Positions 28,574 to 32,351 of a stretch of 38,837 nt of DNA are shown here, in pieces. A program made the translations under genes and the position numbers. A model generated the notes under the pieces. The model worked only from the letters and a program-made list of their open reading frames with translations, made no database searches and was not told the DNA's origin. Within the stretch, counting starts at the first letter, position 1. Every line of letters begins with the position of its first letter. Source of the DNA: an uncultured Alphaproteobacteria bacterium (GTDB taxonomy: Bacteria; Pseudomonadota; Alphaproteobacteria; HIMB59); NCBI GenBank assembly GCA_902529795.1, contig CABZXY010000007.1, forward strand, positions 1-38,837, read 5' to 3'.

Positions 28574-29017
28574 TTAAAGTGTTCCTTTAAGAACATACTC
28601 TAAAATTCGTACCACTTCTTCATTATTAGATGCTACAGCTGACGCTGATGCATCAACTTCTTTTAAAGCGTGTTGATGGTCTTCATTATGAATGACAATA
28701 ATTGATTTGTTAAGTGCTGCTGCATAGCCAGCATCAAAAGCAGCATTCCACTGTTTATATTTTTCACCAAATTTAACAATTACAACATCACTTTCTTTAA
28801 TTGCTTTTTTGGTGCGAATAGAATTAATATTTGCTCCCTTATTATCTTTCCAAAATTTCTTATCTTCAGTACCTAATATTTCTACACCACAATTGTCAGA
28901 ATTTTCATGATTAGTAACTGGTGAGGAAAAATGAATTTCTAAATTTTTTTTGTTACAGAGAGTAATTAATTCATCTCTCCAATTTGTATGAATTTCGCCT
29001 GCTAGATAAACATTCAT
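28574..29017 (-). CDS. YtoQ family protein (nucleoside deoxyribosyltransferase-like fold)
   Basis: NVYLAGEIHTNWRDELI, KAIKESDVVIVKFGEKYKQWNAAFDAGYAAALNKSIIVIH. Confidence 0.85.
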   Translation of the reverse strand: MNVYLAGEIHTNWRDELITLCNKKNLEIHFSSPVTNHENSDNCGVEILGTEDKKFWKDNKGANINSIRTKKAIKESDVVIVKFGEKYKQWNAAFDAGYAAALNKSIIVIHNEDHQHALKEVDASASAVASNNEEVVRILEYVLKGTL

Positions 29018-29249: not shown

Positions 29250-30389
29250 TTAAAAACTATATGCGAGCATTAATTCTGCTTTTTGATTTGGATTAGCACT
29301 AAAAGTTTGATTAACATTCAAACCTAAATCAATACCCTGTATATTTTTAGATATGCCTAGTTTAGCGTCAATATTTTCATTACCAACAAATGACAACATA
29401 TATTGAGTCTTACGATTTGATGTAAAGTTAATAGCAAAGTTCATGGCTTCGCTAATTTTACCACTATTGCCCTGGGTATTTTTATAACTGGAATTAATAT
29501 TTAAAAAATCTCCAGTAGTATATGTCAATCCAATTAAAGAGCTTATCAAATGTTTTGAATTTGCTTGTTGCGTATAAGTATAGATTGTTGAGGTATCTGC
29601 CACATAATTCATTTTTGCATCTGAAGAATTACTGAAATCATTTAAATAGGTAATTGATCCAAATGGTTGGAGTTTATTTTCATTTAGTTGAATTTTATCA
29701 CTGAATTCAAGACCAAATGATGCCAAACCACTTTCAATACTTTGGCTCGCATAATTTAAAGCATTTATTCCAGTCTCAGCATAGTCATCAAGTACAGTAT
29801 AACCCAAATCAAGACGTCCAATTGGTGTTACATTAAAGTCAGCTTTATAAAAAGTTTTACCGTAATTAATTGAACCAAATATTTGTGTTCCATCTCTTGA
29901 GCCGGTTAATGTGTTAGAATTATGAATTCTTTTTAGATCACTCTCTATCAAACCAAAGCCCAAGAACATTTCTATAAATTTGTTATCACTAGATGGTTTT
30001 GTTCGATAAATAGATAAATTTACATTTTTACTATCAATTCTTGTTCCATTTGTTCCAATATCCGTATCACTTTGATCATACTGAATAGCAAAACCAAGAA
30101 AATCACTATCACTAATTTTTTTATCAAATCCTAATGCAAAAGCTTGGCCTTCAGTTTCTTGTGATGACGAAGTTAAACTATCGCCAATTTTTGATACATA
30201 CATTGATCCTGTTGACCAAGCGGACCAACTATCTGGCATAATAGAATTGGTATTTTTGGATAAATTATCATTCACTGATAACTCATCATTTACTAAAGAA
30301 GTGAGAACTGTATCACCCACATCAATATGTATTGGTAAATTATGTTTTGATAAAGCATTGCCCAATTTATTTTCTCTTAAATATCGCAA
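29250..30389 (-). CDS. autotransporter beta-barrel half of an interrupted gene
   Basis: Repeating amphipathic strands and terminal ...KAELMLAYSF*; TTG start, no signal peptide; upstream codons back to the TAA at 30456-30458 read IDAQSELAKHYISQSIDTVSNR in the same frame. Confidence 0.7.
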   Translation of the reverse strand: MRYLRENKLGNALSKHNLPIHIDVGDTVLTSLVNDELSVNDNLSKNTNSIMPDSWSAWSTGSMYVSKIGDSLTSSSQETEGQAFALGFDKKISDSDFLGFAIQYDQSDTDIGTNGTRIDSKNVNLSIYRTKPSSDNKFIEMFLGFGLIESDLKRIHNSNTLTGSRDGTQIFGSINYGKTFYKADFNVTPIGRLDLGYTVLDDYAETGINALNYASQSIESGLASFGLEFSDKIQLNENKLQPFGSITYLNDFSNSSDAKMNYVADTSTIYTYTQQANSKHLISSLIGLTYTTGDFLNINSSYKNTQGNSGKISEAMNFAINFTSNRKTQYMLSFVGNENIDAKLGISKNIQGIDLGLNVNQTFSANPNQKAELMLAYSF

Positions 30390-30455
30390 GCGATTAGAGA
30401 CAGTATCGATTGACTGACTAATATAGTGTTTTGCTAATTCACTTTGAGCATCTAT

Positions 30456-32042
30456 TTAGCCTACAACATCTTTAATCGTTGTTGGATCTACCCTATTATT
30501 AACGGTAAAACTAAGCGCCGTGGTTGATGTTATACCCGTATAATCTTCATCATTATCATCATCAAAAGCCCCAGAGTCAATTAAGACATAATATTCAACG
30601 CCATATTCAAAATCAGCAGATGGATTAATAGTTATTTGCGATGTTCCACTTCCCGTTACATTACTGGCTGTAGAAGCAATTGTCTCAACCGTAGTACCAC
30701 CAGATGTTTTATAAATTACTATATCACCATCATCTGCATTAACGCTTTCACTAAAATTTAGAACTATATTAGCGTCTATTTCAACATCCGTTGCATCATC
30801 AGCTGGTACCGATGAAACTAAAGTTGGGGCTGAATTTGTTGTTGTAAAATTTAGTGTCGTGGCATCGCTTATACCAGTATATGCAGCATCTCTGACATCA
30901 TTAAAAGCTCCAGAGTCAATTGTAATGTAATATTGTGTATTCTCTTCCAAATCTGATGTTGGGTTTATAGTAATTTGTGCAGTTCCAGTTCCTGTAACTT
31001 GACTATCTGTGACATCAATTGATGTAACTTCAGTGCCATCAGATTTAAAAATTTTTATATTTCCACTTTCAACATCAACAATTTCATCAAACGTTAGAAC
31101 TATATTAGCATCAAGTTCAATACCTGTTGCATTATCTGCCGGTGAGAAAGTACTAATAACCGGAGTTGATAAATTATTGTTTGCTCCTAAACTGTATGAC
31201 TGAATGAGATGCTGATGATTTTGAGAAATAAACATATGTGATCCATCATCATCAAGTGCAATACTATTAGCTGAGTCATGAAGATTTGCAATTGCACCAG
31301 TTGTTTCGATAAATGTAGCGGTAGTAAGGTCAAACCCTGTTGTTAAAAAGTATTCATCTACGGCTTTATTTTTGTTATCTAAAACAAACATTGTCTTTCC
31401 ATCTGTTGAAAATATCAATGATTTTGGACCAGCACTGGCGTTTGTGTTTGCACTAATGTCGAGACTTCTTCGATAAGTTGCTCCTGATGATAAATCAAAT
31501 CCACCTGCATCCAATGTGTATTCATCGATCTGCTTGTTTGCAGCATCAGTAACAAACATTGATGTACCATCACTATTGAATGCTAAACCACTCGTACCAC
31601 TAGAATTAGTTAAGGTAAAACCTTTCGTAGAAGTTTGCGATGTAGGGTCAAAAGCTGTACTTAAAGTATATTCTGTTAAAGCATTAGTACCTAACGGTGC
31701 AAGATACATTTTTAAACCATTACTACTAAATCGAATATCGTTAGGAGCAGCTATAGCTACATTATCAGGTAGGGAACTTATAAAAGTAACATTTGATATA
31801 TCAAAATTTGTTGTTAGGCTATACTGACCTACGGCTCCTCCAGTTACAAACATTTTGCTACCATCAGTGTTGAAGGTTACACCTCTAATATAGATTACTT
31901 CTTGTTCTCCTGTGCCCTTATTAGCATCATATTGAGTTATTCTTGTTGTTTCAGCTGCTTTGATATTAAAAGAAAAAAAATTGAAAAATAAGAATACTAA
32001 AAAATAAATTAAGCCCTTATTTATGATCAAACTTATAGACAT
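30456..32042 (-). CDS. secreted passenger half: beta-propeller-like repeats plus two SbsA/Big_5-type Ig-like domains
   Basis: Signal peptide; five repeats like VxFxxDGxxMFV...xEYxLxTxFDL; two repeats ...PADxATxxExDANIVLxFxExV...VTGxGTxQITINP...YYxxIDSGAFxD....YTGI; ends TTIKDVVG*. Confidence 0.8.
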   Translation of the reverse strand: MSISLIINKGLIYFLVFLFFNFFSFNIKAAETTRITQYDANKGTGEQEVIYIRGVTFNTDGSKMFVTGGAVGQYSLTTNFDISNVTFISSLPDNVAIAAPNDIRFSSNGLKMYLAPLGTNALTEYTLSTAFDPTSQTSTKGFTLTNSSGTSGLAFNSDGTSMFVTDAANKQIDEYTLDAGGFDLSSGATYRRSLDISANTNASAGPKSLIFSTDGKTMFVLDNKNKAVDEYFLTTGFDLTTATFIETTGAIANLHDSANSIALDDDGSHMFISQNHQHLIQSYSLGANNNLSTPVISTFSPADNATGIELDANIVLTFDEIVDVESGNIKIFKSDGTEVTSIDVTDSQVTGTGTAQITINPTSDLEENTQYYITIDSGAFNDVRDAAYTGISDATTLNFTTTNSAPTLVSSVPADDATDVEIDANIVLNFSESVNADDGDIVIYKTSGGTTVETIASTASNVTGSGTSQITINPSADFEYGVEYYVLIDSGAFDDDNDEDYTGITSTTALSFTVNNRVDPTTIKDVVG

Positions 32043-32150: not shown

Positions 32151-32204
32151 TGGTTCACCTGTGGTTCACCCAAGTAAATATACTTCAAGCTATTTCAGTT
32201 CACC
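32151..32204. repeat. short direct repeats TGGTTCACC (x2) plus related AGTTCACC
   Basis: TGGTTCACC at 32151-32159 and 32162-32170, and AGTTCACC at 32197-32204, just downstream of the tRNA-Lys 3' end. Confidence 0.6.
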
Positions 32205-32275: not shown

Positions 32276-32351
32276 TGGTGAGCCCAGCAGGATTCGAACC
32301 TGCGACACCCTGATTAAAAGTCAGGTGCTCTACCGGCTGAGCTATGGGCCC
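32276..32351 (-). tRNA. tRNA-Lys (anticodon TTT), encoded CCA
   Basis: Reverse complement GGGCCCATAGCTCAGCCGGTAGAGCACCTGACTTTTAATCAGGGTGTCGCAGGTTCGAATCCTGCTGGGCTCACCA; cloverleaf pairs by eye. Confidence 0.97.

Follow-up and report, generated by a model that had tools for sequence, protein, structure and literature searches.

A single in-frame TAA divides an accessory, mosaic autotransporter gene in an uncultured marine alphaproteobacterium

An autotransporter gene is interrupted between its passenger and its beta-barrel by a single in-frame TAA, and the interruption is probably a recent and genuine mutation that has cost a mobile, mosaic surface gene its function. We found the gene in a stretch of 38,837 nucleotides from an uncultured alphaproteobacterium; the whole stretch was analysed and is referred to as the window. 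The stop itself is an ordinary event by which a dispensable surface gene was inactivated, probably recently, and the interest of the case lies in its setting: two genomes that are otherwise distant differ less at the synonymous sites of the barrel than in any other gene compared, passengers have crossed species almost unchanged, and the gene has been gained and lost beside a tRNA gene. If confirmed, this would be a measurable case of surface variation in streamlined ocean bacteria, with the stop marking a recombination point.

The divided reading frame and its homologues

The earlier note on this DNA described one autotransporter gene split by a single in-frame TAA, and the alignment bears this out at the positions given in Table 1: 30 close homologues align end-to-end with the two halves as one ORF, far more than chance would give. 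Of the features that define a type Va autotransporter, a PF03797 barrel lies at the C-terminal end and a Sec-type signal peptide at the N-terminal end, where passenger residues 1-29, judged by eye and without a prediction program, show an n-region, an h-region and an AXA-type c-region. The single polypeptide that joins signal peptide, passenger and barrel is broken here by the TAA and is found in the aligned homologues. By eye we agree that the barrel ORF has no signal peptide, and there is no evident ribosome site upstream of its TTG start. Two-partner secretion (type Vb) was rejected because the barrel ORF matches PF03797 only and has neither a POTRA domain nor a signal peptide; an independently exported barrel was rejected as well.

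Table 1. Positions in the window of the autotransporter gene, its parts and its neighbours
Feature	Position	Strand	Basis
Passenger ORF, 528 aa, ATG start, product ends at the TAA	30456..32042	-	ORF list and translation
Sec-type signal peptide MSISLIINKGLIYFLVFLFFNFFSFNIKA	31956..32042	-	Boundary by eye; position conserved in homologues
Beta-propeller-like passenger part, SGL repeats	31173..31943	-	Pfam SGL 6.5e-10; L002 model and PDB fold matches
First Big_5 (bacterial Ig-like) domain	30840..31166	-	Pfam
Second Big_5/CopC-like domain, inside the tract 88-98% identical in nucleotides to the L006/L007 genes	30504..30830	-	Pfam and nucleotide comparison
Mosaic switch interval, other-family-like to same-genus-like, containing the stop	30447..30464	-	Informative sites
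In-frame TAA	30456..30458 (30458..30456 as read)	-	Serine (TCN) at the same column in all aligned close homologues
Open 22-codon linker IDAQSELAKHYISQSIDTVSNR, from the stop to the TTG of the barrel ORF, same frame	30390..30455	-	
Autotransporter beta-barrel ORF, 379 aa, TTG start	29250..30389	-	PF03797 Autotransporter 1.6e-33 (Pfam)
tRNA-Lys(TTT), where the gene is inserted in this genus	32276..32351	-	
ytoQ-like gene (PF11071), neighbour of tRNA-Lys at empty sites	28574..29017	-	Pfam

The passenger matches Big_5 in two stretches (2.4e-27), and its N-terminal part is a beta-propeller as predicted by a model of the homologue L002 together with PDB fold matches. That AlphaFold2 model, of the whole homologue from six sequences, gave a confident propeller and an unusable barrel (mean pLDDT 47.7); a second model of the barrel and linker had a mean pLDDT of 28.0. 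In type Va autotransporters a linker helix runs through the barrel pore; both models place a putative helix just after the stop column, but with a pLDDT there that is very low, no higher than about 50.

Homologues were drawn from related genomes, 36 of the 150 searched giving matches; six loci came from a scan of genome contigs, and the title of each names an uncultured Alphaproteobacteria bacterium and an AG- isolate. The alignment comprised 30 non-redundant close homologues of the same order and the more distant L037. The earlier note had considered that homologues might be coded as two separate proteins, but each aligned homologue is a single ORF, most of them of about 750-940 aa, a few running off or starting near the end of a contig or locus. 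Every one has serine at the stop column, encoded by TCA, TCC or TCT in the close homologues. The suggestion that the TAA arose from a TTA leucine codon is therefore unsupported. A wider search of the order (162 genomes), made with the last Big_5 domain, linker and barrel as query, returned the window's own genome (G000) as the only match with an internal stop. A second interrupted homologue, with one TAA in G066, was dismissed when it proved to be an intact ORF of 1136 aa whose end the match had overrun. The gene thus carries the mark of a pseudogene, a disrupting mutation that is absent from intact orthologues.

The TAA is the sole lesion: the 401 downstream codons hold no other, and both halves are otherwise intact, as had been claimed. 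The linker that follows the stop ranks among the best-conserved stretches of this gene family. The earlier view that the stop is either recent or an artefact is supported, and the stop, if real, is young. Under neutral decay the probability of finding no second stop is 0.65 at 0.01 substitutions per site and 0.14 at 0.05. The earlier note had proposed dN/dS of the barrel as a check. The window branch gave 0.41 (bootstrap 0.23-0.84), alongside 0.49 (L002) and 0.23 on two same-genus branches; the point estimate is below one, but it mostly reflects the time before the stop, and the event is too recent for this value and the missing second lesion to tell whether purifying selection was lost after it.

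Mosaic structure and insertion at tRNA-Lys

The accessory status of the gene and its mosaic structure are additions to the earlier reading. Between the window and the same-genus genome G022, the barrel (29253-30455) has a pS of 0.114, below that of every other gene among the 407 that reach 150 aa, for which the median is 0.70, and both genes flanking the autotransporter have a pS of 0.63. G018 is closer to the window in the flanks (0.28 for coaD, 0.30 for gyrA), yet its barrel is farther away (0.188) than that of G022. Passengers of genes with two Big_5 domains were compared pairwise, and the end of the window's passenger, from about 30854 to the stop, is 88-98% identical in nucleotides to the genes L006 and L007 of another family, which sit at a different genomic position. 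Before the stop, 77 of 82 informative sites are other-family-like; after it, 22 of 26 are same-genus-like. Judged from these sites, the gene is a recombinant of an other-family-like passenger end and a same-genus-like barrel. The stop lies inside the 17-base switch interval; a position drawn at random from the gene would fall there about 0.6% of the time, a figure worked out post hoc.

Recent exchange of passengers between species is well supported by comparison of the sequences. The passengers of L020 and L023 are 99.9% identical in nucleotides, against 94% for their barrels and 91-93% for the downstream flank. Across the family, passenger identity ranges from 41 to 100% in amino acids and that of barrels from 71 to 99%, and pairs whose barrels exceed 90% may have passengers below 50%. 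These crossings, and a switch point that falls at the linker, are what one would expect if broken passenger-barrel alleles circulated as reversible off states and were replaced by exchange within the conserved linker. We regard such an allele as very unlikely here: about 31 genomes yielded no second broken allele, no known repeat or inversion machinery toggles the stop codon, and phase variation works far faster than exchange between species. It is also unlikely, although a little less so, that the gene belongs to a surface-variation system of an ocean order in which a near-constant barrel and divergent propeller passengers recombine between species at the linker and nonsense alleles serve as replaceable off states; of this reading passenger exchange is well supported, but not that the stop acts as an off state.

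A wider set of loci gives a similar picture. Nine of them (L020, L023, L013, L028, L005, L025, L034, L004 and L024) have passengers that are 98-99.9% identical between different species, with barrels at 92-96% and most downstream flanks at 91-94%.

The autotransporter gene in this genus sits between tRNA-Lys and the ytoQ-like gene, and it is carried by four of 52 same-genus genomes (three close copies and one distant copy). At 21 of the 30 coaD/tRNA-Lys sites inspected the position is empty, with ytoQ at most 60 bp after the tRNA; among the genomes with an empty site are G029, assembled as a single contig, and G038, whose CoaD shares 98% identity with that of the window. The gene is thus dispensable and mobile, an accessory of the genus. 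In G022 the autotransporter lies between tRNA-Lys (L002:4361-4436) and a perfect 48-bp copy of the 3' part of that tRNA (L002:7338-7385), an arrangement that looks like an att duplication flanking a single-gene island without an integrase, and like site-specific insertion. A tRNA-borne island would have a duplicated tRNA end on its far side; relatives have empty sites and G022 has the duplication, but the window has no distal tRNA copy. The integrase gene of an integrative island is absent, the autotransporter ORF standing alone between tRNA-Lys and ytoQ in both the window and G022. It is from these arrangements that we infer how the gene entered the tRNA-Lys site. A check for phage origin confirmed no relative in viral contigs and found none in phage records.

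The same site showed two further features. In G037 (L170:1219-4611) this tRNA-Lys holds a different insert of about 3.3 kb, which ends in a 42-bp tRNA copy (97.6%) and has one ORF that by eye resembles an outer-membrane beta-domain protein. Paired GTGAACCA motifs lie between tRNA-Lys and the gene in the window (32151-32169), and G022 has a similar pair upstream of the gene and a single copy downstream; the pairs are possibly recombinase arm sites or a regulatory element.

Origin and consequences of the stop

The case for a real mutation has to contend with the fact that the stop is known from one genome and from its assembly alone. An error of amplification, sequencing or assembly, in which a single wrong base, or a faulty join in the conserved linker, has put a stop into a gene that is intact in the cell, is the alternative that deserves most attention, although we consider it unlikely. 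The stop is a single-base event in a single genome, and the nearest named relatives are AG- records, probably single-cell assemblies. The GORG-Tropics benchmark for such assemblies (PMC11247762) puts mismatches at 5 and indels at 3 per 100 kb, figures that apply only if the window is itself a single-cell assembly, for which the AG- names of its relatives are the sole indication. Since about 5.2% of base changes in the compared genes create a stop (computed), that benchmark, if applicable, predicts about 1.1 false stops in the 429 kb compared, and one was seen: when 457 conserved genes (143,045 aa) were set against G022, no internal stop other than this TAA was convincing.

From the same benchmark, if applicable, one would expect some 12 indels across these genes, yet none of 419 genes of at least 130 aa shows a change of frame against G022, which suggests that the assembly is cleaner than the benchmark. 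A random error would strike the autotransporter gene with a chance of about 0.65%, its share of the compared sequence, yet the stop lies in the gene with the strongest signal of transfer, and 8 kb from the contig end. Its place at the exact switch point could reflect a consensus error at a chimeric join, but a chimera would need two joins, and the upstream and downstream flanks both belong to the genome's own locus.

These counts follow filtering, for the first scan for disruptions returned mostly antisense ORFs or wrong starts. Two cases were set aside as unconvincing: a short change of frame in an ORF of 113 aa, and a 189-aa ORF that looks antisense (G022 C12, hit in C4). In G038 (L168:2059-6795), the nearest relative by CoaD protein, several genes are broken across frames, and this looks like an indel-rich assembly.

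The intact downstream frame, together with the branch dN/dS estimate below one, would also suit functional readthrough or a two-protein system, in which a leaky or suppressed UAA leaves the passenger mostly periplasmic and in part displayed at the surface. The earlier note had raised readthrough, and we found no positive evidence for it. In this genome TAA closes 315 of the 457 conserved genes, each time within 10 residues of where the homologue ends, and no tRNA with a UUA anticodon, the candidate suppressor, was found in the 774 of 961 kb examined. On these two grounds genome-wide reassignment or suppression of the stop was rejected, in agreement with the earlier note. The stop is conserved in no homologue, having one carrier among about 31, and the barrel frame offers neither a signal peptide nor, by eye, an evident ribosome site; dN/dS mostly records the time before the stop. 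Readthrough is thus the least probable of the accounts considered, and a highly improbable one.

The reading we prefer is a real and recent loss of function in a monomeric (type Va-like) autotransporter gene, which sits as an accessory insertion downstream of tRNA-Lys in this uncultured marine alphaproteobacterium. Recombination has joined an other-family-like passenger end to a same-genus-like barrel, and the nonsense codon would have been acquired very recently at or next to the recombination point. Translation would end at the UAA; the passenger would be exported by Sec and, having no barrel to anchor it, would by analogy with the workings of type Va proteins then stay in the periplasm or be degraded. 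The barrel frame would be untranslated or, if restarted, unable to reach the outer membrane because it has no signal peptide. With the passenger unanchored and the barrel not exportable, this cell lineage would have the surface protein switched off, and recombination could put an intact allele in place of the broken one.

Comparison with known systems

Inactivation of autotransporters by stop codons is of a kind already known in Brucella and Campylobacter. The Brucella type Va genes bmaA, bmaB and bmaC are pseudogenised by premature stops (PMC8111173), so that either the passenger has lost its barrel or the barrel ORF has no signal peptide, with intact orthologues in related strains, as for the gene in the window. 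In Brucella, however, many strains often share the broken state as a fixed one, and further mutations have accumulated, whereas the present gene carries a single stop, in a single genome, and a recombination breakpoint falls at it. The capC and capD autotransporters of Campylobacter, which show lineage-specific decay (PMC7168839), are likewise accessory genes common to several species and inactivated by stops or frameshifts, but theirs is a population-scale pattern over thousands of genomes and ours is a single carrier.

Nearer in habitat, hypervariable region 1 of SAR11 holds autotransporters (PMC2217521) and an adhesin is described from coastal SAR11 (PMC12636525). Compared by kind and not by homology, these too are variable, gained-and-lost autotransporters of streamlined marine alphaproteobacteria; the present case differs in that one gene alone is inserted at tRNA-Lys, and that the barrel is shared while passengers are exchanged. 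HIMB59 has flexible genomic islands whose content is replaced in place by homologous recombination (PMC10734472), and this replacement at a fixed position in a streamlined marine alphaproteobacterium resembles what we describe. The phosphate islands of that study lack tRNA borders, whereas the autotransporter gene abuts tRNA-Lys and is accompanied in G022 by the 48-bp tRNA duplication.
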